The notes below the pieces were generated by a model. The model worked only from the letters and a program-made list of their open reading frames with translations, searched no databases and was not told where the DNA came from. A DNA stretch of 22,651 nt from a virus. The position numbers and the translations under genes are program-made. This document shows, piece after piece, positions 211-22,589 of this stretch. The DNA lies in IMG/VR virus record IMGVR_UViG_3300009408_000033, positions 1 to 22,651 of that record. One strand, 5' to 3'. Numbering within the stretch: the first letter of the stretch is position 1; each line of letters starts with the position of its first letter.

Positions 211-1143
211 TTCGTGGTCTATGTCTCCGTGGTATTCCCACACTTCATAGCGATTGTTATCATTAATAGTTGTTATGCCGCCCATGGCTCTAAGCTCTTG
301 CAGGCGAGAATTACTTTTGTTTGATTCGCTCGGGTCAGTTAATAAAATCTCTTCAATCTGGTCATCCATAAAGCCGGGCAAGCCCTTTAACTTTTTAAGG
401 TCTGCTTTGCTCATGAAATGGCGTTCAAACGTAAAACCTGCATCTTCAATTTTAGCCACCGACATATCGGGAAAGAAATTCCAATAGTCCACACGTTGTG
501 GCACGGGGGTTGTTTCTTCAACCACGTTTAAGTGATGCACGTCATCTTCTTGCTGCCATGCTTTACGAGTGCGACCTATAATAAATGGCCCTTTTAAAAT
601 ACCCGTGCCTACTTCAATGGCATCGCTAATTATTTCACGGCATTCAATGGCATACTTGCCTTCGGTTAATTGGTCGTCTATCTCCTTTTCCATGTTAGCA
701 GCGCTTTCTTTAAACTCGTCTAACACCGCTTGCGACATTTCACCAATCGTCATGCCTTGGTCAACACCATTTTCAACATAAGGGTCTTGGTTTTTTAACT
801 CTTTGGTAAACTGGGGCACGGGCGTATGCTCAATTGCCCAATTTTTATCATCACTGGGAAACAACATATCGCCCAAACGACCTTTTGCAATATTGCACTG
901 AGTGCGCGTTAAATTAACAAAGGCACTACTTTTAGTATCATCGTCATCTAAAATGGCTTGAATTTTGGCATCATACTTTCCCTTAATGCGCCGTAAATCG
1001 TCCATCCAACGTTCTTCAATTTCTGTCCGTAAACCCACTTGCTTCATCGCAGAGGTATGCAAACGATGGGCAAAGCCACGAATAATATCATTGCTGCTTT
1101 TCTCTTCTTCGTCATCAACAACGTGCATCATTTCTTTATTCAT
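1..1143 (-). CDS. Phage portal (head-tail connector) protein, partial, 3' end beyond window
   Basis: The frame is open from an ATG at 1143 to the window edge, giving 381 codons with no stop. The portal forms the ring at the unique capsid vertex through which terminase pumps DNA. Evidence is its place directly after terminase (the terL stop is 3 nt upstream) and a sequence style I recognise from podovirus-type portals: an acidic N-terminus, then a segment GRLGDMLFPSDDKNW near residue 90, and YWNFFPDMSV near residue 230. The odd part is from residue 312 on: ELEACGCEFD, then eight Asp plus Glu-Gly, the same pair again, then three more Asp8-Glu-Gly units up to the edge. Portals of this type are normally well over 500 residues, so a large part is missing. 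The ribosome-binding site is weak (GGG 10 nt before the ATG), so translation may be coupled to terL. Confidence 0.72.
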   Translation of the reverse strand, partial: MNKEMMHVVDDEEEKSSNDIIRGFAHRLHTSAMKQVGLRTEIEERWMDDLRRIKGKYDAKIQAILDDDDTKSSAFVNLTRTQCNIAKGRLGDMLFPSDDKNWAIEHTPVPQFTKELKNQDPYVENGVDQGMTIGEMSQAVLDEFKESAANMEKEIDDQLTEGKYAIECREIISDAIEVGTGILKGPFIIGRTRKAWQQEDDVHHLNVVEETTPVPQRVDYWNFFPDMSVAKIEDAGFTFERHFMSKADLKKLKGLPGFMDDQIEEILLTDPSESNKSNSRLQELRAMGGITTINDNNRYEVWEYHGDIDHEELEACGCEFDDDDDDDDDEGELEACGCEFDDDDDDDDDEGDDDDDDDDEGDDDDDDDDEGDDDDDDDDEG

Positions 1144-1146
1144 TTT

Positions 1147-2442
1147 TTAAAAACCCATACTCGAATCAGACACACCGCCTGAATGAAAATTATTATGACT
1201 ACTACCAAACTCACCCACTGGATACGCAAAGGTTAATGCCAATGCATCGGCTTCGTCGGGTGAGCGCAATCCTCTTTTCTTCATGTTTTCTTTTTTCTCA
1301 ATCATTAATCTGCTTTTGCTGTCGTAATGGTATTCGGGCGCACATAAATCACCTCGCAACGAGCTTTTGTCGGGTATTTTGCACGGTGGCTCTTTAAACC
1401 ACTCGGCCATTTCGCCCCACATTTCTGCACGTTTATTACCGTATTTTTCAAAGTCTAATGCCCTGTTTGCACTATTAACCGCCGTTAATCTATCGCCATA
1501 ACCTAGCTCTCTTAGCCTATCGACTACGCCAGCGCCCAAGCCACCAACATCGACAAACACCATACGAATAGGGTTAGGCGTTTTGTCTTTGTTTTTAATT
1601 TCTTTAACAATTAAGCCGGTCACTTGCATGGTGTCTAATTGCGAATAACTCTTTAAGCCAAACGCGACACGACCACGACGATAAATAAACGACGATCTGT
1701 CATCGCCAAACCGTGCAGGGTCAACACCCAATACCAATGCACCTTGTTGCTGGGCATCTTCATCGGTTCTTGCGGCTGTGACCCATTCGGGCTGAATAAG
1801 CGCTTTATCAAAATTGGTTAAGCACTCGCCTTCCCAAATATGCCGATATTTTTTATAGTCCTTTTTCTTTAGCTCGTCTTTTTCCTTTTTAAGCTCTTCA
1901 GGGAACCATTTGTTATCACGCCAGTTAACCTTAACCACCAATGCGCCTTCTGGTGGATACATCACAAAACGTTGATAGGTTGGGTCAAACTCATCAAAAG
2001 GGTTAAAGCTAATCCAAATTTCAGAACCGGGCTTTCTAATAGTTGGGATCAACACTTCCCATGATCTGTCTGAAACATTTTCTGCTTCTTCAATCCATAC
2101 AATGTCTGCACCTTCGAGTGATTTAATGTTGCCCGTGTTACGCGCTAAACCAATAAAGATAAACTCAGTGCCATTTAATCCCTTAATCGAATTATCTGTA
2201 ATAATATAAAACCACTCCAAATTAAGCCGTTGAATCGTGTCACTAAGCAGCTTATGCACCGACTGCGAAATAGACGTTTGAAACTCTCTTGCACACGCAA
2301 TTAACAGTTCGCTATCTACACCTTTTAATAATAAAACCTGAGCAAATCCCCAGCTTTTTGCACCACCACGGCCACCATAAAAAATCTTATATCGACACTT
2401 ATAAAATAAAGGCTCAAACGCTTTGCCTATTTCAAGCTTCAA
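1147..2442 (-). CDS. terL: Terminase large subunit (packaging ATPase/nuclease)
   Basis: 431 residues, full length for PBSX-type (Terminase_3) large subunits. The N-terminal ATPase has Walker A GGRGGAKS (residues 23-30) and Walker B IVWIEE (114-119). The C-terminal RNase H-like nuclease has Asp241 in GVDPARFGDD, Asp298 in FVDVGG and a late acidic motif DEADALAL near residue 405. It drives ATP-dependent DNA translocation through the portal and cuts concatemers. The start is a TTG at 2442, two bases after the terS stop and without a good Shine-Dalgarno site, so translational coupling to terS is likely. The N-terminus fits the family, which argues that little is missing. The portal gene follows 3 nt after the stop. 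Confidence 0.95.
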   Translation of the reverse strand: MKLEIGKAFEPLFYKCRYKIFYGGRGGAKSWGFAQVLLLKGVDSELLIACAREFQTSISQSVHKLLSDTIQRLNLEWFYIITDNSIKGLNGTEFIFIGLARNTGNIKSLEGADIVWIEEAENVSDRSWEVLIPTIRKPGSEIWISFNPFDEFDPTYQRFVMYPPEGALVVKVNWRDNKWFPEELKKEKDELKKKDYKKYRHIWEGECLTNFDKALIQPEWVTAARTDEDAQQQGALVLGVDPARFGDDRSSFIYRRGRVAFGLKSYSQLDTMQVTGLIVKEIKNKDKTPNPIRMVFVDVGGLGAGVVDRLRELGYGDRLTAVNSANRALDFEKYGNKRAEMWGEMAEWFKEPPCKIPDKSSLRGDLCAPEYHYDSKSRLMIEKKENMKKRGLRSPDEADALALTFAYPVGEFGSSHNNFHSGGVSDSSMGF

Positions 2443-2444
2443 AA

Positions 2445-2948
2445 CTACACAAACTCTATTTCAAAGTTCATATCCTTATCTACGCTGTGAATCGTCTTTT
2501 CAGAGAATGAACCTGTTAACTTACCCTGCAAATCAATCGCACCTTTCACTCCATTAGCATCAAACTTTTGAATAGTTTCTGTGGTTTTATTTCCATCTTC
2601 ATTAATAACAGTATTTGTATAAGCAACATCACCAAAGCAATAATCCATTAAACGCCTAGAGTCTTTAATTAACTGAGCAGCATTCACATCCGCTTTAAAA
2701 GAAACATCCTCTGTCTTAATCTCTAAATACTTAACCATCGCTGGTCGTTTAAACAACTCACTGGCTCTTTTTTCAGCCGTGCGCTCGGTAGCGCGTGGGT
2801 GCAACACCATGTAACAGCGTTTTTTATTATTCGTAAATTCTTTGCTACCACCACGATATAAATCAGCAATCGCACGTTCTGAAGCTTTAAGTCCGTAATC
2901 GGCTGTTAAGTTGAATTTATCGCTATGTATATTGTCTTCATCAATCAT
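2445..2948 (-). CDS. terS: Terminase small subunit
   Basis: 167 residues, similar in layout to Terminase_2 family small subunits: an N-terminal helix-turn-helix region with a conserved-looking segment YMVLHPRATERTAEKRASEL (about residues 46-65), a central helical oligomerisation part, and a C-terminal stretch GAIDLQGKLTGSFSEK, which corresponds to the family's 'ALxLLGKxLGxF' tail. It recognises the packaging site and presents DNA to TerL. The ATG at 2948 has a good site AGAGAG six bases upstream. It is the first gene after a terminator at 3003-3027, so it either has its own promoter in 2949-3122 or depends on antitermination from upstream late transcription. Confidence 0.85.
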   Translation of the reverse strand: MIDEDNIHSDKFNLTADYGLKASERAIADLYRGGSKEFTNNKKRCYMVLHPRATERTAEKRASELFKRPAMVKYLEIKTEDVSFKADVNAAQLIKDSRRLMDYCFGDVAYTNTVINEDGNKTTETIQKFDANGVKGAIDLQGKLTGSFSEKTIHSVDKDMNFEIEFV

Positions 2949-3002
2949 TTTTCTCTCTGTTGGGGCATAACCGCAAACGCGCCGGTACTTTCATACGGGC
3001 AT

Positions 3003-3027
3003 AAAAAAACCCGAATTAACGGGTTTT
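3003..3027 (-). terminator. Rho-independent terminator between fibre/lysis operon and terminase genes
   Basis: The minus strand reads an 8-bp perfect stem AAAACCCG/CGGGTTTT with a 6-nt loop, followed by T7. It is nearly symmetrical but the T-tract favours the minus strand. It would stop transcription coming from the genes at 3123-9867 unless antiterminated. Confidence 0.8.
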
Positions 3028-3122
3028 GAATTGAATATAAATTGCATCTAACAACCACTAGATGCTGTGGGTTCTCGTTGGGGTTTTACCCCGTATCAAC
3101 GTCACTCGTCAGCAAAGCTGGG
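3028..3122. other. Structured non-coding leader upstream of terS
   Basis: No credible gene. It holds a perfect 7-bp hairpin at 3044-3065 (GCATCTA, 8-nt loop, TAGATGC) and a second GGGG/CCCC hairpin at 3080-3092 flanked by GTT/AAC that extend the stem with a bulge. With the terminator at 3003-3027 this makes three successive hairpins just before terS. In many phages cos or pac sites lie here, but nothing in the sequence proves a cutting site. Confidence 0.4.
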
Positions 3123-6257: not shown

Positions 6258-7526
6258 TTATTCCTGATCACTTATCATATAAACAGAGCCGGAATACCCG
6301 CCTCCCGTTAAAACGCCTTTGCTTTTACCTTCTTGATAAAAGGGTTGAACCGTTGCTTTTCTGCCCTGTATTATTAAAGGCTGAACTCCTGTAAATTCAG
6401 GAGTAACATTAATCTCACCATTCACATCAGAAGTTCCCGAACTAATTTCAGTACCTTGAGGTAAAGTACCGCCAATATCTGCATAGATATAAAGATCAAC
6501 ACCCTGTATTTCTAAAAGTGTTTGTGCGTCATAAGCCGTGATACCTAAAGGTACTGTAAAAGCACCTGGTTGATCACAACCAATAGGCCATCCAGTAAAA
6601 GGTTGACCGTCAATATCTTTATTATTGGATGCTGAAATATCACCTCTTACCACCAAATCAAGACCCGATGTTTCTATTGAGTTACCTGCTTTAAGGTGTG
6701 GGTTTAGACCTGCAAGATTCTCTATCTCGTTAGCAGGAACAAGATTAATGGTTGGGTTTGTTCCCCAAGCTGTGCCATCGCTAGATGCATTATTAGAGGC
6801 TTCTAATACATTAGTTAACCCAGTACTAAAATCCTCTGCGTTACCTAATCCTAAACAGTTAATTGTGGTTGTTAATGCACTACCATTACTATTAGAATCA
6901 AAACCTCTTGACGTACAATTTAACGCTACGCAATTAAGCTGCCTACCTCCATTGTAGGATTCAGTGTAAAATCCAACTTGGGAATTAAAAGCTAGACAAC
7001 TTATTGCGGTAGGTATATTTGCTGAGGTATCATATCTAAACTCAAAGGCACGTTTATCTGCCTGACTTATCAAACCAATCCCTACTGCATTACCATGTAA
7101 TTGAAGTGTTCTAATCCCAGTACCAGTACCATTACCAGTGGAGAAAAACTCTAAAAACAAAACCAACACATTTCCACTAAATAAGTACTTGTCAGCATAA
7201 GCTATAGTGTTGCTTATTTTTATTCCTGTGTTGGGTAGTCCTGAGTGTTCATAAGATGGAGCAGCCCTAACAACAACCCAATTATCAATAAAAGTGAAGT
7301 TACCAGTACTTATACCTACTACCTCAGTATAAGAATAAAACACATCAAAATAAGGAGACTCATTTGACCCAGTTGTTGAAGATATATCCCTACTACCATA
7401 AGTAGCATCTGCTATAGCAGCAGATAAACTAGAAAATGTAGCAGCATAGGTAAACCCAGTATCATCAGATACAACATCACCAGTTCTTGATACATCGCTA
7501 ATAGCAACATAGACTTTAGTAGGCAT
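6258..7526 (-). CDS. Probable tail fibre/spike protein with beta-helix-like repeats (422 aa)
   Basis: The central part (about residues 95-260) is a series of short hydrophobic strands separated by Asn/Gly/Ser turns (INCLGLGN, LNCVALNCTS, AISCLAFNS), typical of right-handed parallel beta-helix folds used in phage spikes. A C-terminal beta domain follows (about 300-422) with TAYDAQTLLEIQGVDLYIYAD. The N-terminus MPTKVYVAISDVSRTGD is like that of phage virion proteins. It is likely a receptor-binding protein, inferred from fold signs and position. The ATG at 7526 immediately follows the stop of the small lipoprotein gene (TAAATG). No catalytic motif for a depolymerase could be picked out by eye. 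Confidence 0.6.
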   Translation of the reverse strand: MPTKVYVAISDVSRTGDVVSDDTGFTYAATFSSLSAAIADATYGSRDISSTTGSNESPYFDVFYSYTEVVGISTGNFTFIDNWVVVRAAPSYEHSGLPNTGIKISNTIAYADKYLFSGNVLVLFLEFFSTGNGTGTGIRTLQLHGNAVGIGLISQADKRAFEFRYDTSANIPTAISCLAFNSQVGFYTESYNGGRQLNCVALNCTSRGFDSNSNGSALTTTINCLGLGNAEDFSTGLTNVLEASNNASSDGTAWGTNPTINLVPANEIENLAGLNPHLKAGNSIETSGLDLVVRGDISASNNKDIDGQPFTGWPIGCDQPGAFTVPLGITAYDAQTLLEIQGVDLYIYADIGGTLPQGTEISSGTSDVNGEINVTPEFTGVQPLIIQGRKATVQPFYQEGKSKGVLTGGGYSGSVYMISDQE

Positions 7527-7637
7527 TTAGCGAGTAAAACGAAAATTAGAAGGAAGAAACAGAATCACACTTAGCAATTCCCCTTCAACACATGAAGTTG
7601 TTAAAGCAATGGCAAGTAAAAGTATGTATTTTTTCAT
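7527..7637 (-). CDS. Predicted small lipoprotein (36 aa), candidate outer spanin
   Basis: A short gene beginning ATG at 7637. The product starts MKKYILLLAIALTTSC: two Lys, a hydrophobic core and a Cys at position 16, which fits a lipoprotein signal peptide, though the residue at -3 is Thr rather than Leu/Val/Ile. The mature part would be only 21 residues. The start overlaps the stop of the 154-residue TM protein (ATGA), and its stop abuts the next ATG (TAAATG), strongly suggesting it is a real coupled gene. Phage outer spanins follow inner spanins in this way, but 21 mature residues is very short for one. It could instead be a lysis-type or unknown lipoprotein. Confidence 0.6.
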   Translation of the reverse strand: MKKYILLLAIALTTSCVEGELLSVILFLPSNFRFTR

Positions 7638-8098
7638 TTAATTTGCATCTTAAGAATGTAATCTCTTAGCGAGTTGTAATTGCGCTGCTGTGTTGCGCTT
7701 AATTTATTGTAATTTTCTTGCTGTATGTCTGTTAAATTTTCTAGCTTAACGCTGAACTTATCTTGTGTGATTTTAAGATCATCTATTGATGAAACCACGG
7801 CACCCATTTCTATATTTTGTTTAAAAATTAAATTATCAACAGAACCCTGAGTAACTAACGTGCTCTTTAGTTTTGTGATGTCTTCTGCATTTGTATCGAT
7901 GTCTGCAAACGATAAGGTGATTGATTTAAAAGCACCGCCGCCGATAATTAATAAACTAAGCACAAAAGCTAATGGCACACTCTTATTAAACTGCCAGCCC
8001 TTATTGTTATCAACTAATGCTTGAGGCTTTTGCATCGAGTATAATGTCTCACGAATTGCTCTTAAGTCACCTCTGCGCTCATCGCCTTCGTAGCTCAT
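7634..8098 (-). CDS. Single-pass membrane protein with coiled-coil tail (154 aa), candidate inner spanin
   Basis: A hydrophilic N-terminus of about 38 residues (MSYEGDERRGDLRAIRETL) is followed by one membrane segment (VPLAFVLSLLIIGGGAF, about 41-57) and then roughly 95 residues that are helical and rich in Gln, Asn, Lys and Leu with heptad-like spacing. Orientation N-in, C-periplasm is likely. This is the shape of an inner spanin, and the lipoprotein gene directly overlaps its 3' end. No sequence family recognised with certainty. Its start overlaps the stop of the receiver-domain gene (ATGA), placing it firmly in the lysis cassette. Confidence 0.6.
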   Translation of the reverse strand: MSYEGDERRGDLRAIRETLYSMQKPQALVDNNKGWQFNKSVPLAFVLSLLIIGGGAFKSITLSFADIDTNAEDITKLKSTLVTQGSVDNLIFKQNIEMGAVVSSIDDLKITQDKFSVKLENLTDIQQENYNKLSATQQRNYNSLRDYILKMQIK

Positions 8099-8520
8099 GC
8101 TATAAATCTCGGTCTGTGCTTTCCTAAGTGCAACCTAACAATTGCGCTTATATCTAAAATTAAATCTTCGGGCGTTTTCATCTTTGATATCGATGTTTTT
8201 ATGTATTTATCTAAATCAGACAAATCACTTAATTCAATATCAGCAGACATAGCAATAATCGCAACAGGCTGATGGTAAACCTCGCTTAAAATCCTAATGC
8301 ACTCAGCTCCATTAACGTTGGGCATTCTCATATCCATGAAAATTACGTCAGGCTTTAGCTTTAGTTTATTCATCGCGTGAAGCTCATCAACCATGTCTGA
8401 ACAATTTGTAAACAAACTAATTTCATCGCGTATAAATGATTTATCTAAAACAGATTGAAGCACCGCTTTTAAAACTTTTGAATATCTTGGATCATCGTCG
8501 CAGATAAAGATCACTAGCAA
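8095..8520 (-). CDS. Stand-alone response-regulator receiver domain (CheY-like), 141 aa
   Basis: A complete receiver domain with no output domain. The expected residues are all present: acidic pocket Asp8-Asp9-Asp10 in FICDDDP, phosphoacceptor Asp63 in VIFMDMRMP, Ser92 in AIIAMSAD, and Lys113 in SISKMKTPED. It should be able to accept phosphate from a host histidine kinase or a small donor. About 15 residues after the last helix hold no recognisable effector. The start is TTG at 8520 or GTG at 8514; GGAGA lies upstream and fits both, the GTG overlapping the previous stop (TAGTG). It sits between a membrane protein and a putative spanin in a lysis operon, an odd place for a signalling protein. 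Lysis timing or interference with host signalling are inferences. Confidence 0.88.
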   Translation of the reverse strand: MLVIFICDDDPRYSKVLKAVLQSVLDKSFIRDEISLFTNCSDMVDELHAMNKLKLKPDVIFMDMRMPNVNGAECIRILSEVYHQPVAIIAMSADIELSDLSDLDKYIKTSISKMKTPEDLILDISAIVRLHLGKHRPRFIA

Positions 8521-8885
8521 TGGTCTCCGGTAATCGTGTCGTAAGGGTCAAGCACTTCATCACACATATAATCTGCAACAGTTAATCTGATTTTATTTAA
8601 AAAACGAAGGTTCATATAACCTTCGTCAATCAACTTGCGATAACGCTTTAAGCGCCTAGTTACTAATAATTCTTCAGGTAAGTTCAACGTTAAAATAGTG
8701 ACAGGGATGACATTCACAGCAAAATCAAATAATGCAAACGGCACAATACCAAACCAAAAAATTAGGCGGTTTTTCTTGCCCCATTTCTTAATAGCCATCA
8801 TTAGAAGGACAAACCACGCAAGCAGAACAAAAACACAAGCAAGAGAAGCAAGCACAAGTGCCAATAACCATAAAAACAATTCCAT
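8514..8885 (-). CDS. Phage membrane protein, two TM segments (123 aa)
   Basis: Two hydrophobic segments (about residues 3-31 and 42-67) are separated by a basic loop KKWGKKNR, followed by a soluble C-terminal half ending DPYDTITGDHC. I recall proteins of this shape, with a C-terminal 'LDPFD...G.HC' signature, next to endolysin genes in many proteobacterial phages, without an assigned function. The start overlaps the holin stop (TAATG). A second holin-like or antiholin-like function is possible from topology and place. The C-terminal Cys and conserved Asp-Pro pattern suggest a specific interaction rather than mere membrane insertion. Confidence 0.7.
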   Translation of the reverse strand: MELFLWLLALVLASLACVFVLLAWFVLLMMAIKKWGKKNRLIFWFGIVPFALFDFAVNVIPVTILTLNLPEELLVTRRLKRYRKLIDEGYMNLRFLNKIRLTVADYMCDEVLDPYDTITGDHC

Positions 8886-9433
8886 TACTTACGACTCAAT
8901 AACGAAGCAAGCAAGCCCAATGGTTGCGGCTTATCATCAATCGTTGCATGGCGTGATTTCGTTTCAGTACGCAAGTCACCAAAGTAAGCGCGGATCACAT
9001 AAGTAAATGTCCCCGTAACAGTTAAAAACACACCGGCCATTTCAATAGAAAATGCAGCCTCAGCGCCATGCTTTACATACACATAAGCAGTAGCAGCCAT
9101 AAAAGCAATTGAAATAACAATTAAAGCATTCATCGCTTTATTAACTTGCTTCGCTCTAGTCTCTTGCCCGTCTGAACTGGTCATCGCTTGATAACGAGCA
9201 GTTCGACCCTCTTCTTCTTTAACCAATAAATTAATTTCAGCTAAATTTAATTTTCTTTGCTCTTCAGGCGGTAGCTGCTTAATAGCGGCTATCGCCACAT
9301 CACCCGTAGCATTAGCCGATAGCTTTTTATCGTCAGGTAAAATCGCATTAATCAACGGAATAGCAACAGCCCCAAAAGGAGAAGCACTCAACAAACCCAT
9401 GCCAACCGTTTTTAATATTGATCCAATATTCAT
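8885..9433 (-). CDS. Holin, 3-TM type (GTA/phage holin family)
   Basis: The protein has an N-terminal hydrophobic stretch (about residues 6-28), a long charged helical part with EEGRTARYQAMTSSDGQETR, then two clear membrane segments (about 100-119 and 131-152) and a basic C-terminus. This matches the three-TM holin family in which a long soluble stretch precedes two close TM helices. It would permeabilise the inner membrane to release the lysozyme. I chose the ATG at 9433 rather than 9439: GGGAG lies seven bases before 9433 but only one base before 9439, and 9433 overlaps the lysozyme stop as ATGA. Confidence 0.7.
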   Translation of the reverse strand: MNIGSILKTVGMGLLSASPFGAVAIPLINAILPDDKKLSANATGDVAIAAIKQLPPEEQRKLNLAEINLLVKEEEGRTARYQAMTSSDGQETRAKQVNKAMNALIVISIAFMAATAYVYVKHGAEAAFSIEMAGVFLTVTGTFTYVIRAYFGDLRTETKSRHATIDDKPQPLGLLASLLSRK

Positions 9434-18162: not shown

Positions 18163-18339
18163 ATGCTAGGCAGTGGCAGCAATAGCTCAAGCTCTGGTGC
18201 CGCACACCCTAATGCGCCATCACAACAAAGCAGAAACTTCGACCAACAAGCAGGACGAGCAGACGCAGGCAAAACAGGTGCAGCACCAGCCCAAACACTG
18301 CCGCCCGTAGACGAAGGCCTTGATTACATGCCATTTTGA
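18163..18339 (+). pseudogene. SSB C-terminal tail, same frame after the stop, with own ATG
   Basis: Directly after the TAA is ATG (TAAATG), then 58 codons MLGSGSNSSSSGAAHPNAPS ... DEGLDYMPF and TGA. Gly/Ser/Gln/Ala-rich linker and final PPVDEGLDYMPF are the SSB disordered linker and acidic tip (E. coli ends DDDIPF). There are no frameshifts or other stops, so the decay, if it is decay, is recent. Re-initiation at the ATG could make a free tail peptide; stop read-through could make full-length SSB. Confidence 0.75.
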
Positions 18340-18389
18340 TACGCACCTTTTTGGCTAAAGTGGGACTTAAAATTAAAGAAGAAAAAATT

Positions 18390-18647
18390 ATGATACAGAC
18401 ATTCAAATACGACAAAAAAGAATATTCGGCAATAGCACTGGGTGAAAAGCTAAAAATAAAGCCAGGTTCAATATACAGCCGCTATCGCGTCATAAGAAAA
18501 GAAGGGCTAAACGCAACCAAAATCATCAACGATGAGGTTTATTGGAAAGCAAGAAGAGACGGCAGAAGAAGCAGCATAAAAAAAACAACAGTGATGCCAG
18601 TTTTTATAAAGCCAGTAGATCAATGGCTATATGTTGCGAGAGCGTAG
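18390..18647 (+). CDS. Small HTH-like early protein (85 aa)
   Basis: SAIALGEKLKIKPGSIYSRY followed by RVIRKEGLNATKIIN looks like a helix-turn-helix with the second helix SIYSRYRVIR; the C-terminus is basic (WKARRDGRRSSIKK). It may be a DNA-binding regulator or an excisionase-type protein, but no family is clear. The ATG at 18390 has a weak AAGAAG site; the frame is open back to a TTG at 18336 without a better site. Last part of the early operon before the restriction-modification block. Confidence 0.5.
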   Translation: MIQTFKYDKKEYSAIALGEKLKIKPGSIYSRYRVIRKEGLNATKIINDEVYWKARRDGRRSSIKKTTVMPVFIKPVDQWLYVARA

Positions 18648-18711
18648 CGAACGTCAAACTTAAGCGATTTATTATGTTGAGCTATTATGAATTACCGAAG
18701 AGTTGAAAATT

Positions 18712-18906
18712 ATGATTGATTTAGTAAAAGCCACCGAAAGTAAAAACGCTTTTTATTCAATTTACAAAAGCAACGCTGAATATAAAGACAAGCAATCTGT
18801 GGTTGCTGCGTTATTTAAAAAACTGATAAACAAAGGCACTTTTGATTTTGACTCAAAGCGAAGCAAGCAGGCAATTTATAGATTTAGATCAAAAGTAGAA
18901 ATTTAA
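18712..18906 (+). CDS. Hypothetical small basic protein (64 aa)
   Basis: MIDLVKATESKNAFYSIYKS, then SVVAALFKKLINKGTFDFDS and KRSKQAIYRFRSKVEI. Helical and basic, without known family; perhaps nucleic acid-binding. GAAGAG lies nine bases before the ATG at 18712. It ends three bases before the attC-like structure. Confidence 0.5.
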   Translation: MIDLVKATESKNAFYSIYKSNAEYKDKQSVVAALFKKLINKGTFDFDSKRSKQAIYRFRSKVEI

Positions 18907-18908
18907 GA

Positions 18909-18985
18909 ATATAACGCCAGCTTCATCTGCCAAAAAAGCAGAACGAAGTGGCGCTTTTTTGGTCAGATGCAAGCTTTTGTTAGCT
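18909..18985 (-). repeat. attC-like site (integron cassette recombination site)
   Basis: Read on the minus strand from 18985: R'' AGCTAAC, 5-base spacer, L'' CTTGCATCTG (18973-18964), then an inner stem with CCAAAAAAGC (18962-18953) and GCTTTTTTGG (18939-18930), L' CAGATGAAG (18929-18921), 5-base spacer, R' GTTATAT (18915-18909). L'' and L' pair perfectly apart from one extra base at the fourth position of L'' (18970), which is where attC sites have their extrahelical base. The endonuclease stop TAA lies inside R'', as is usual for cassette genes. 77 bases in total. The same structure could also act as a bidirectional terminator between the two convergent operons. Confidence 0.6.
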
Positions 18986-19963
18986 ATTTTTTGACGTAAA
19001 ATCCATAAAGTAATTTTCTTCATCAATTTTATAAAAATCTACATTTGTCCTTCCATGAGAGGTAAAATTTTCGATTGTTACTAATTTACCATTTGCAACC
19101 CCAAGCCTAAACCTAAAGTATTCACCTATTAAACTGTTATTATGAGGGGTATGAATAGCTTTCCCATTTTCTTGTGCTCTAGTACAAATTAAAATTTTCC
19201 CATCATCCGTATGGATAGTAAAATGCTGTGCTATCGGCGGAAAAAAGTCAGAACTGTATACATCAACTTTTAATGGAATATATGCCTGATTAGGTTCTCG
19301 CCCCTCTCTTTGTCCCCAGTTTAATCCTGACTTCTGAGAAATTTCACCTGACCTATTAATAAATGATATTTTCTTATGCTCTAAACCTTTAGTTGTACTG
19401 TATTCTGCTGTTTCTTCTTCCACAGCATCTTTTGTTGAATTAACAGCCCGATTATCGTTATAGAGAGTAATAACTTCTTCTGCATCTTGATGATTGCAAT
19501 AGATAGATTCATCAATCAAAGATTCATAATAGTCATATGCAGTTACAGGATCACATTCAGTTGCTACCTCTCGTTGCGATTTACCAATAAATGCTTGTTG
19601 AGAATAATTTGCTGAACCCGCAAAGGCAATGACTGGTTTTTTGTTTTGAATCCATGTATATACTTTTGAGTGAACAGGAGGGCGATTTATCAGATAACTA
19701 CAGTTAAAAACACCAGCTAAATCTTTTTCTACCAAAGCCTGAAAGCCACGGTGATTAGTTTTAGATAAACCATCTCTGCATGTCATACCAATAATTAAAT
19801 TGATATTTATATTTGAATTTTGTTCTTTGAGTTTTTCTGCATGGTGAAATACCATTGCAGAAGAGGCGTAGCCAGAAATTATATATAAATCACTAGCTCC
19901 ATTTTTAGCAGGTTTTAAAAGTATCTCTGAAAATAAATTATCAGCAAACAAGGCGTTGCTCAT
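18980..19963 (-). CDS. Type II restriction endonuclease, PLD-type (NgoFVII-like family)
   Basis: 327 residues. The catalytic signature of phospholipase D-type nucleases is in the N-terminal half: His98-x-Lys100 in PPVHSKVYTW, followed by FAGSANYSQQ (about 115-124). The remainder (about 200-327) is a beta-rich domain expected for DNA recognition. This layout and its pairing with a C5-methyltransferase fit the NgoFVII family of type II enzymes, which cut DNA without the usual PD-(D/E)xK fold. GGAG seven bases before the ATG at 19963, inside the methyltransferase gene. The recognition site cannot be read from sequence. The reading frame is intact. Confidence 0.8.
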   Translation of the reverse strand: MSNALFADNLFSEILLKPAKNGASDLYIISGYASSAMVFHHAEKLKEQNSNININLIIGMTCRDGLSKTNHRGFQALVEKDLAGVFNCSYLINRPPVHSKVYTWIQNKKPVIAFAGSANYSQQAFIGKSQREVATECDPVTAYDYYESLIDESIYCNHQDAEEVITLYNDNRAVNSTKDAVEEETAEYSTTKGLEHKKISFINRSGEISQKSGLNWGQREGREPNQAYIPLKVDVYSSDFFPPIAQHFTIHTDDGKILICTRAQENGKAIHTPHNNSLIGEYFRFRLGVANGKLVTIENFTSHGRTNVDFYKIDEENYFMDFTSKNS

Positions 19964-21041
19964 TTTGATACTCCAATTTGATATTGTGATCTATTGATTC
20001 GTAGTTAATGCCAGCAAATGTTTTTAAAATAGAATCAAATATTGTTTTTATACCTTTAGATGGTACAGCCATCCCAATTTGCTTTCTTACACTTTCTTTT
20101 GACCCAATAAACTCAAAATCATCAGGGAATGTTTGTAGTCTTGCTCTTTCTCTATTCGTCAATGCTCTATTTTCTGACCAATGATATACATGAGTTCCCC
20201 CACCTCCGCTACCAGTTACTGTATATGATGGTTTTTCTGGATGTAGTCTTTTATAGATTTGGCTTATTTTAACACTTTTTACATTTAGCTCTAAGTCTTT
20301 AGGAAGGTTTGCATTAAAAGCATTTTCTCCTGCCTTAATATGCTTTAAGCGTTCTATAACCTGTGAGGCATGTTTAGTATATTCATTATTAAATGCATCA
20401 TCAGGAATTGGTGGGCTTTCAATTGCTGTTCGAGACGAAGTATCAATATTTTTATAGGGTTCTGGTGATGGAACTTTAAATGTTTTTTCTAAGTCATTAC
20501 GAATTCCAACAATAATGATTCTATGCCGTGCTTGTGGGACTCCATATTCTTCAAATTTATAAAGGTGGGGGGTAATTGTATAACCAGAGTCTTCTAATTC
20601 TTTAAGTATTGTTTTAAAGGCATTTCCTTCATTTGAATTCCTTAATCCACCAACATTTTCAGCCAAAAACCACATTGGTTTGAATATTTTTAATGCTTTA
20701 ACACCATAACTATATAAAGGGCCAAATGTACCATTTATACCTTTTTGTTCACCAACCATACTAAAATCATTGCATGGGAATCCAAAAGCAAGACCATCAA
20801 TACCAGATATATCTTCTAGCTTACTGAAATCTAATTTTCTTATGTCTTTACAAATGACACTTCCATTTTCATTGACACAAATGTTTTTTTCATATGTACT
20901 GCATGTGTCCTTGTCATAATCAGTAGCCCATGCATGTGAAATGCTAAATTTTTCACCTTTTTTTGAAGTTGATTCAGCTTTCATTGCGGCATACCCAATA
21001 CCGCCAGGACCACTAAATAACTCTCCAAGTTTAAATTTCAT
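19941..21041 (-). CDS. DNA (cytosine-5) methyltransferase of the R-M system
   Basis: 366 residues with the ordered motifs: I LGELFSGPGGIG (5-16), IV GFPCNDFS with catalytic Cys90, VI ENVGG (129-133), VIII QARHR (168-172), IX RALTNRERARLQTFP and X QIGMAVP. The Cys is followed by Asn-Asp rather than the common Gln-Ser, a variant seen in some C5 enzymes. The variable region with the target recognition domain is about 175-280. Methylates the host DNA and protects it from the partner endonuclease, whose gene it overlaps by 23 bases. Both genes are clearly more AT-rich than the phage genes around them, a sign of separate origin. Confidence 0.93.
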   Translation of the reverse strand: MKFKLGELFSGPGGIGYAAMKAESTSKKGEKFSISHAWATDYDKDTCSTYEKNICVNENGSVICKDIRKLDFSKLEDISGIDGLAFGFPCNDFSMVGEQKGINGTFGPLYSYGVKALKIFKPMWFLAENVGGLRNSNEGNAFKTILKELEDSGYTITPHLYKFEEYGVPQARHRIIIVGIRNDLEKTFKVPSPEPYKNIDTSSRTAIESPPIPDDAFNNEYTKHASQVIERLKHIKAGENAFNANLPKDLELNVKSVKISQIYKRLHPEKPSYTVTGSGGGGTHVYHWSENRALTNRERARLQTFPDDFEFIGSKESVRKQIGMAVPSKGIKTIFDSILKTFAGINYESIDHNIKLEYQNEQRLVC

Positions 21042-21072
21042 TTCAATGCCCCATGTAATAGTTGATTGCTAT

Positions 21073-21078
21073 ATTATA
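21073..21078 (-). promoter_or_regulatory. Possible -10 of the R-M operon promoter
   Basis: Perfect TATAAT on the minus strand, 32 bases before the methyltransferase ATG and inside the proposed cassette. No good -35 at 16-18 bases is seen, so this is weak evidence for a cassette-borne promoter. Confidence 0.4.
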
Positions 21079-21182
21079 CATGATTGATTCCTAGAAAGCT
21101 GCCTTGATGTAATATTATTGCTTTAGATAGCTAACAGATATTAAACAGCCATTTGGCAGTTATTGACGCAACTGCTCAATGG

Positions 21183-22301
21183 TCACTTTTTTAGCTTCAC
21201 TAAATAATCACCCCATTGATGCATCATTTTTATGCGCTCTTCTAATTTATAAGAACGATCATAAGCCGCTTTAACTGAATTGCCAACACTGTGCGCAAGC
21301 TGCCGCTCAATCAAATCTTCATCTAATCGCAATTCTTCACGAGCCAACGTACTAAATGACGACCTAAACCCATGAAATGTAACCGCACTTTTATCATAGC
21401 CCAATGAGCGCAAGGCATGGTTTAAAGTATTCTCACTTAATGGCCGCCCTGCTTTAGCACCAGAAAAAACATAATTATCACGACTAAATGAATAAGCATC
21501 TCTAACAAAACCCACTGCGGCAGGATGCAAAGGCACAACATGGTCCCGTTTCATCTTCATGCGATCAGCTGGAATCGTCCACAACAGCTTATTAAAATCA
21601 AACTCATCAAAAACAGCCTCACGCAATTCATTGCTACGCACAAAAACAAAAGGAGCAAACTGCAAAGCGAATTTAACCGAAGGTGACAAACGGCTTGCGT
21701 TATCAATCGACTTTAATAAATCAGCAAAGCCCACCTCGTCAACAATAGCCGCCATATTTTTAGTAATCGGCTTTTTGGTTGCACCAAGCAAAACCCCCGC
21801 AGGGTCATGCTCACACATCAAATTAACAACAGCATAACGAAAAACACGACTCGCCAAAGCGCGAACCCGCCGCGCCAACTCTAAATGCCCAGAGCGCTCA
21901 ATCGTCTTTAAAATAGGTAAAATGTGTTTTGGTTTAATCTCCGCCACACGCATATCACCTAAAGTTGGCAACAAATAATTTTCAATCCGCCGCCATTCAA
22001 GCTTTTTATTTTTTTCACTCGAATAATTTTTATGTGCATGCCAATCCCTAGCCACAGCCTCAAACACATGAGCACCATACTCCAAAGCCGCTTTAGCCTG
22101 ATCACGCTCAATGCGAGCCATATCAATATCAACTGACGGCCACTCGCCAAGCGACATCATTTTGGGTTTAGGCTTAAAAATCCTTAAACGCCAATACTTC
22201 TTACCATTTGGCTTAACCTCAATATAAAGCCCATCACTATCAATCTCTCTATAAAGCTTCTCCCTGGGCCTTAACCTTTTAATCTTAGTATTAGTTAACA
22301 T
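21183..22301 (-). CDS. int: Prophage integrase, tyrosine recombinase of the P4 type
   Basis: 372 residues. The N-terminal arm-binding domain (DUF4102 type) has KPNGKKYWRLRIF and MSLGEWPSVDID; the catalytic domain has Arg222 (VRSNELREAVFDEFD), His310-x-x-Arg313 (HGFRSSFSTL), His337 (QLAHS) and the nucleophile Tyr347 (AAYDRS). It catalyses integration and excision at the tRNA gene. The linker between arm and core-binding domains is short: EYGAH is followed at once by VFEAVARDWH, where relatives have about 15-20 more residues. The ATG at 22301 has no strong ribosome-binding site. It reads away from the tRNA, with phased repeats just upstream. Confidence 0.95.
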   Translation of the reverse strand: MLTNTKIKRLRPREKLYREIDSDGLYIEVKPNGKKYWRLRIFKPKPKMMSLGEWPSVDIDMARIERDQAKAALEYGAHVFEAVARDWHAHKNYSSEKNKKLEWRRIENYLLPTLGDMRVAEIKPKHILPILKTIERSGHLELARRVRALASRVFRYAVVNLMCEHDPAGVLLGATKKPITKNMAAIVDEVGFADLLKSIDNASRLSPSVKFALQFAPFVFVRSNELREAVFDEFDFNKLLWTIPADRMKMKRDHVVPLHPAAVGFVRDAYSFSRDNYVFSGAKAGRPLSENTLNHALRSLGYDKSAVTFHGFRSSFSTLAREELRLDEDLIERQLAHSVGNSVKAAYDRSYKLEERIKMMHQWGDYLVKLKK

Positions 22302-22501: not shown

Positions 22502-22589
22502 TGGCGGAGAGCGAGGGATTCGAACCCCCGGTCCCTTTCGGGACAACGGTTTTCAAGACCGCCGCATTCGACCACTCTGCCAGCTCTCC
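22502..22589 (-). tRNA. serT: tRNA-Ser(UGA), probable prophage attachment gene
   Basis: 88 bases including an encoded CCA. Acceptor GGAGAGC pairs with GCTCTCC, discriminator G; the anticodon loop CTTGAAA gives anticodon UGA; a long variable arm (GTTGTCCCGAAAGGGACC region) is typical of tRNA-Ser; the T-arm has GGTTCGAATCC. The gene is intact. Its 3' end faces the integrase, so the element probably re-created the 3' part at integration and a second copy of that part should mark the far end of the prophage. A TATAAC at 22607-22602 could be its -10. Confidence 0.97.

Follow-up and report, generated by a model that had tools for sequence, protein, structure and literature searches.

A type II restriction-modification operon with integron cassette anatomy in a prophage, beside the phage integrase gene

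RESULTS

Restriction-modification genes within a prophage

The DNA stretch analyzed here (the window) is a 22.7-kb virus record, IMG/VR IMGVR_UViG_3300009408_000033, which contains part of a temperate phage. Its genes comprise those for portal, terminase, tail, and lysis proteins, early genes including those for SSB and an exonuclease, and the gene for a P4-like tyrosine integrase (int). Positions 1 to 250 encode Asp/Gly-rich repeats (DDDDDDDDEG) that form the end of a portal-like gene at the contig end, and the assembly possibly ended within this repeat. A block of two restriction-modification (R-M) genes occupies the space between the end of the early operon, whose stop codon lies at 18906 on the plus strand, and the end of int, at 21183 on the minus strand (Table 1). 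Integrase genes of this kind usually adjoin their tRNA attachment site and, read from the host side, the order is tRNA-Ser, int, R-M block, and early genes. This order supports the location of the block inside the prophage, as proposed in a preliminary description of the locus. When the tRNA-Ser was searched in 369 genomes sampled from the class of G001, the best match was 95% identical, occurred in one genome, and was confined to the tRNA.

According to our analysis, the two genes encode a C5-cytosine DNA methyltransferase and a type II restriction endonuclease of the NgoFVII family and overlap by 23 bp. The methyltransferase retains the motifs PC (89), ENV (128), and QxRxR (170), while the endonuclease, which matches the R.NgoVII structure entry 4rct, combines an N-terminal PLD nuclease domain and a C-terminal B3-like DNA-binding domain, with the HxK...GSxN motif intact. 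This domain composition, the intact motifs, and the adjacent C5 methyltransferase gene are those of an NgoFVII-family type II R-M system. NgoFVII/NgoAVII-type systems likewise pair a PLD nuclease plus B3-like endonuclease with a C5 methyltransferase; in contrast to several relatives, the window pair has no vsr gene. Going by these protein families, incoming DNA that lacks methylation would be cleaved by the endonuclease, with the methyltransferase protecting the host and the prophage. The TATAAT hexamer of the leader is a possible promoter of the operon's own, from which expression is predicted.

Table 1. Features of the R-M block and its phage surroundings in the window
Feature	Position	Strand	Characteristics
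Last ORF of phage early operon	18703..18906	+	Stop codon 2 nt from R' box
attC site	18909..18985	-	77 bp including both R boxes; R boxes, 3-nt spacers, L stem, extrahelical bases
R' box GTTATAT	18909..18915	-	G from cassette, TTATAT outside cassette
Inferred integron cassette	18915..21134	-	2220 bp, between two G/TT crossover points
R'' box AGCTAAC	18979..18985	-	3' edge of block
Type II restriction endonuclease gene, NgoFVII family	18980..19963	-	327 aa; PF09565, E 3e-42; PF20731, E 1e-35
C5-cytosine DNA methyltransferase gene	19941..21041	-	366 aa; PF00145, E 4e-75; PADLOC MTase_II, E 3e-117
Cassette leader	21042..21134	-	TATAAT hexamer 37 nt before methyltransferase ATG; no good -35
5' junction GTTAGCT	21129..21135	-	G from target, TTAGCT from the cassette's original R'
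Phage tyrosine integrase gene (int)	21183..22301	-	P4-like, Arm-DNA-bind_3; distinct from integron integrase
tRNA-Ser(TGA)	22502..22589	-	Probable attachment site, host DNA past it; right end of window

An attC site at the end of the operon

The operon is followed by a hairpin which, read on the minus strand, runs AGCTAAC-AAA-AGCTTgCATCTGaCC...GGCAGATGAAGCT-GGC-GTTATAT, where lower-case letters mark the extrahelical bases of the L'' arm. It displays the anatomy of an integron attC site, since the R'' box ends in AAC and the R' box starts with GTT, the L stem is folded and set off by a spacer, and the two extrahelical bases show the canonical spacing, 6 bp apart on the L'' arm, with the first lying 8 nt past AAC and with A as the second. 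The arrangement is identical in attC-aadA7 (ATTcAAGCCGaCGCCGC) and in the attC sites of phage TJE1, which share with the window the 8-nt distance from AAC to the first extrahelical base, the 6 bp between the two, and A as the second; sites of TJE1 recombined with IntI1 (PMC9892861). The hairpin also fits the published description of attC sites, which lists R and L boxes, an unpaired spacer, two to three extrahelical bases, and a variable terminal structure (PMC11641012), and it folds far better than shuffled sequences (z of -4.0).

attC sites were sought by a geometric scanner that does not demand A as the second extrahelical base and that was run with positive and negative controls. The scanner recovered attC-aadA7 and both published attC sites of TJE1, and in 1.8 Mb of first-order Markov sequence it gave three matches with a top score of 17. 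In 2.07 Mb of fetched sequence it reported 27 sites, nearly all with A as the second extrahelical base, among which the window site was second best with a score of 26. Over all loci, the distance from AAC to the first extrahelical base was 8, as in the window, in 24 of the 32 sites whose second base is A and in none of the four sites where it is not.

The scanner found no second attC in the window, which thus does not hold a CALIN (at least two attC sites within a few kilobases without intI). Nor did we find an integron platform, i.e., intI, attI, and Pc beside the cassette: intI is absent from the virus record, the sole recombinase encoded in the window is the P4-like phage integrase, and this protein had no match in an integron-integrase family search. 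A blastn search of the attC sites against plasmids returned no match. Elsewhere, a Kiritimatiellae metagenome-assembled genome (MAG) (L103) has an attC (9026-9092) whose A-tract terminal stem (TCAAAAAAG/CTTTTTTGA) is that of the window site.

Edges and composition of the cassette

At the opposite edge of the block, the heptamer GTTAGCT (minus strand, 21135-21129), which precedes the methyltransferase start codon by 87 nt, is the exact complement of R'', as first pointed out in the preliminary description and as recombination at G/TT would leave it. This 7-mer occurs just twice in the whole window, at R'' and at the 5' edge, a count that is unremarkable alone given 2.6 expected over the window; within the 141 nt that separate the methyltransferase start from the int stop, 0.007 correctly oriented copies are expected by chance. 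From the two G/TT crossover points we obtained the same block limits as had been given before, and both R-M genes read toward the attC site, again in agreement with that account. Removal of the cassette in silico left a 56-bp convergent spacer between the early operon and int, with no ORF broken.

Two further arguments of the preliminary description hold only in part. The R' box is complementary to R'' at five of seven positions, and this mismatch, which is real, had been taken as the mark of a target outside an integron. In any ordinary cassette array, however, R' takes its outer half from the cassette that follows; the argument is therefore weak, as the mismatch does not distinguish a phage target from a following cassette. 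The composition of the block was said to differ from that of the phage, and its GC content is indeed 33.7% versus 39.9% for the rest of the window, with GC3 values of 0.19 to 0.22 in the cassette genes versus mostly 0.29 to 0.55 in the phage genes. Base composition is nevertheless supporting evidence only, since the phage gene at 6258-7526 has the GC3 of the cassette (0.215).

Relatives of the R-M pair

We searched for relatives of the endonuclease in a scan of about 85,000 genomes. The closest one, 83% identical, was found in a Lysobacterales MAG (L075), followed by a Leucothrix protein (L076, 61%) and by proteins of many phyla at up to 57%; methyltransferase identity tracks that of the endonuclease, with 84% for L075 and then 81% and 76%. 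In the maximum-likelihood tree the window groups with L075 (support 100/83), within a clade that also includes L076 and L078 (100/99), in which the relatives are all contigs of bacterial MAGs and no other viral sequence appears. At the DNA level, the window and L075 share 80% identity over the stretch that begins at the methyltransferase start codon and ends at R'', where the similarity stops exactly. The L075 pair is then followed by an attC-like site (CTCTAAC...GTTAGCT) with a 5-bp R pairing, a 3-nt spacer, a 5-bp L stem, and one bulge, which scores below the threshold of the strict scanner. Downstream of this site lie the gene for a phd-type antitoxin and, with it, a small partner, and the L075 genome encodes an integron integrase (399 bits, with a cut-off of 265). 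A second palindrome past the toxin-antitoxin pair was not counted as attC, being long and of the wrong shape.

No clear attC was found near the pair in L076 and L078, the next closest after L075. By eye, the Leucothrix pair seemed to be flanked by attC sites on both sides, a candidate we rejected as the arm lengths differ and no intI scores above the cut-off in this genome. Around its R-M genes, L076 has a long MITE-like palindromic repeat in two nearly identical copies (1634-1739 and 6403-6508), inverted relative to each other.

Among the other relatives, a Syntrophaceae MAG (L081/L193, G039:C86) carries intI, attC, M-R-vsr, and attC on one 10-kb contig, where the vsr gene was named from its sequence, without a family search. 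The first cassette of this integron is nucleotidyltransferase-like, the M-R-vsr genes form another, and the contig is masked in places near intI. An attC of the same kind also lies near the pair in L085, L086, L103, and L116, and intI is present in 10 of the 42 genomes or records holding the R-M family. Near most family members no attC was detected, and none of the 34 tested loci of phage-borne methyltransferase relatives had one nearby. Family membership alone thus does not imply a cassette: the R-M family spreads by several routes, and it is the attC site and the edges that carry the cassette claim.

Search for a prophage with an empty site

No prophage relative with an empty site, for which the preliminary description predicted an uninterrupted TATCTG/TTATAT joint, was found through the junction 19-mer, the neighboring ORF, or the int relatives. 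The exact junction 19-mer was present among viral contigs in only one, unrelated contig, with the match overlapping the start of another ORF; the neighboring ORF at 18336-18647 had no viral relatives; and the int relatives, at most 39 to 43% identical, are too distant for a comparison of junctions.

DISCUSSION

An integron-cassette origin of the R-M block, as put forward in the preliminary description, is well supported, because three features identify it as a cassette: the geometry of attC, a 5' edge that matches, and, in a genome encoding intI, a chromosomal sister pair with an attC-like end. We assign a probability of nearly 0.8 to the reading that it is an integron-type type II R-M cassette (M, R, attC), most likely placed in the phage spacer by the integron integrase of a past host. 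This integrase would have excised the cassette as a circle, whose attC (bottom strand) would then have recombined with a G/TT core of the phage, within what would originally have been a 56-bp spacer separating int from the early operon convergent with it. Insertion by the integrase at a non-integron site of the phage is the best explanation of the locus, plausible and unproven. Once there, the R-M pair may be expressed in the lysogen from a cassette promoter, and the prophage-borne system would protect the lysogen against phages. The fuller proposal, to which we incline with less assurance, is that the integron integrase put one complete R-M cassette, by itself, next to int at a site that is not part of an integron, and that the prophage arms its lysogen and ferries the cassette between hosts and integrons.

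A cassette of integron origin may instead have entered the phage through recombination, ordinary or illegitimate, with a chromosome that bears an integron, or may form the end of a larger array of attC sites that was captured. Published phage integrons do resemble captured chromosome segments, and homologous or illegitimate recombination that takes place off target, at GTTRRRY motifs, has been proposed for them (PMC9892861); moreover, TTATAT, the outer half of R', could be where a following cassette, now lost, began. We consider this route rather unlikely, since exactly one cassette is bounded at both G/TT points, the window holds no other attC, and the cassette edges lie 2 nt from the stop of the early ORF and 47 nt from that of int. 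Far less probable still is that the R-M operon is an ordinary phage moron followed by a transcription terminator, with the core sites arising by chance. The A-tract/T-tract hairpin (AAAAAAGC...GCTTTTTT) downstream of the operon would suit a terminator, and relatives of the R-M genes in other phages lack attC. Yet a terminator scan does not call this hairpin, attC sites themselves can be weak terminators (PMC9892861), and against this reading stand two extrahelical bases at the canonical places, the second an A, the R boxes on both sides, the matching GTTAGCT at the opposite edge, which chance makes improbable, and the attC-like end of the sister operon in L075.

The preliminary description knew of no standard example of such a locus, which is correct only in part. 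The components of the locus are of known kinds, as phage integrons and attC clusters (PMC9892861) and defence and R-M cassettes in integrons (PMC12409362, PMC12444791) have been published, while a single complete R-M cassette in a prophage, seemingly inserted alone, is new. Qi et al. (2023, PMC9892861) reported three complete integrons and 17 CALINs in 10,705 phage genomes, with methyltransferases among the cargo, and when six phage attC sites were tested with IntI1, five recombined. Their phages, both temperate and virulent, likewise hold attC-bearing cassettes, some with methyltransferase genes, but in arrays of at least two attC or captured integron pieces with orphan methyltransferases, whereas the window has a single cassette with a complete R-M pair beside int. 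According to the accounts in PMC12901181 and PMC12444791, cassettes integrate at non-integron attG sites in bacterial genomes (Loot et al. 2024, Nat Microbiol, doi 10.1038/s41564-023-01548-y); as in the window, the cassette there sits at a target other than attI or attC, although those targets were reported in bacterial genomes and a phage target is what we propose here. Anti-phage cassettes, type II restriction included, are described in chromosomal and mobile integrons (Darracq 2025, Kieffer 2025, and Getz 2025, as covered in PMC12409362 and PMC12444791); they are likewise compact systems, theirs in bacterial integrons and that of the window in a prophage.

Attention should also be drawn to attC-like arrays between small phage ORFs in other IMG/VR phage contigs: L006 (1335-1388 and 2099-2190), L059 (five sites, 808-3044), L215 (two, 8566-8968), L229 (8919-9031), and L242 (three, 7318-8102). 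Unlike in TJE1, aadA7, and the window, the extrahelical bases of these five lie on the opposite arm relative to the ORFs (ORFs on the plus strand, attC top strand on the minus strand), and an integron integrase would be expected to use the other strand. With five of about 150 scanned viral contigs, such arrays seem more frequent than in the published phage survey.

Since the screen of Qi et al. required two or more attC per phage (PMC9892861), single-cassette insertions of this kind would go uncounted. The strict attC geometry used here offers a way to look for them. In the current view, integrons store anti-phage genes and prophages carry genes for defence. Transfer of a defence cassette out of an integron and into a prophage would link the two, the cassette gaining a vehicle between hosts and the phage a ready-made defence against competitors.
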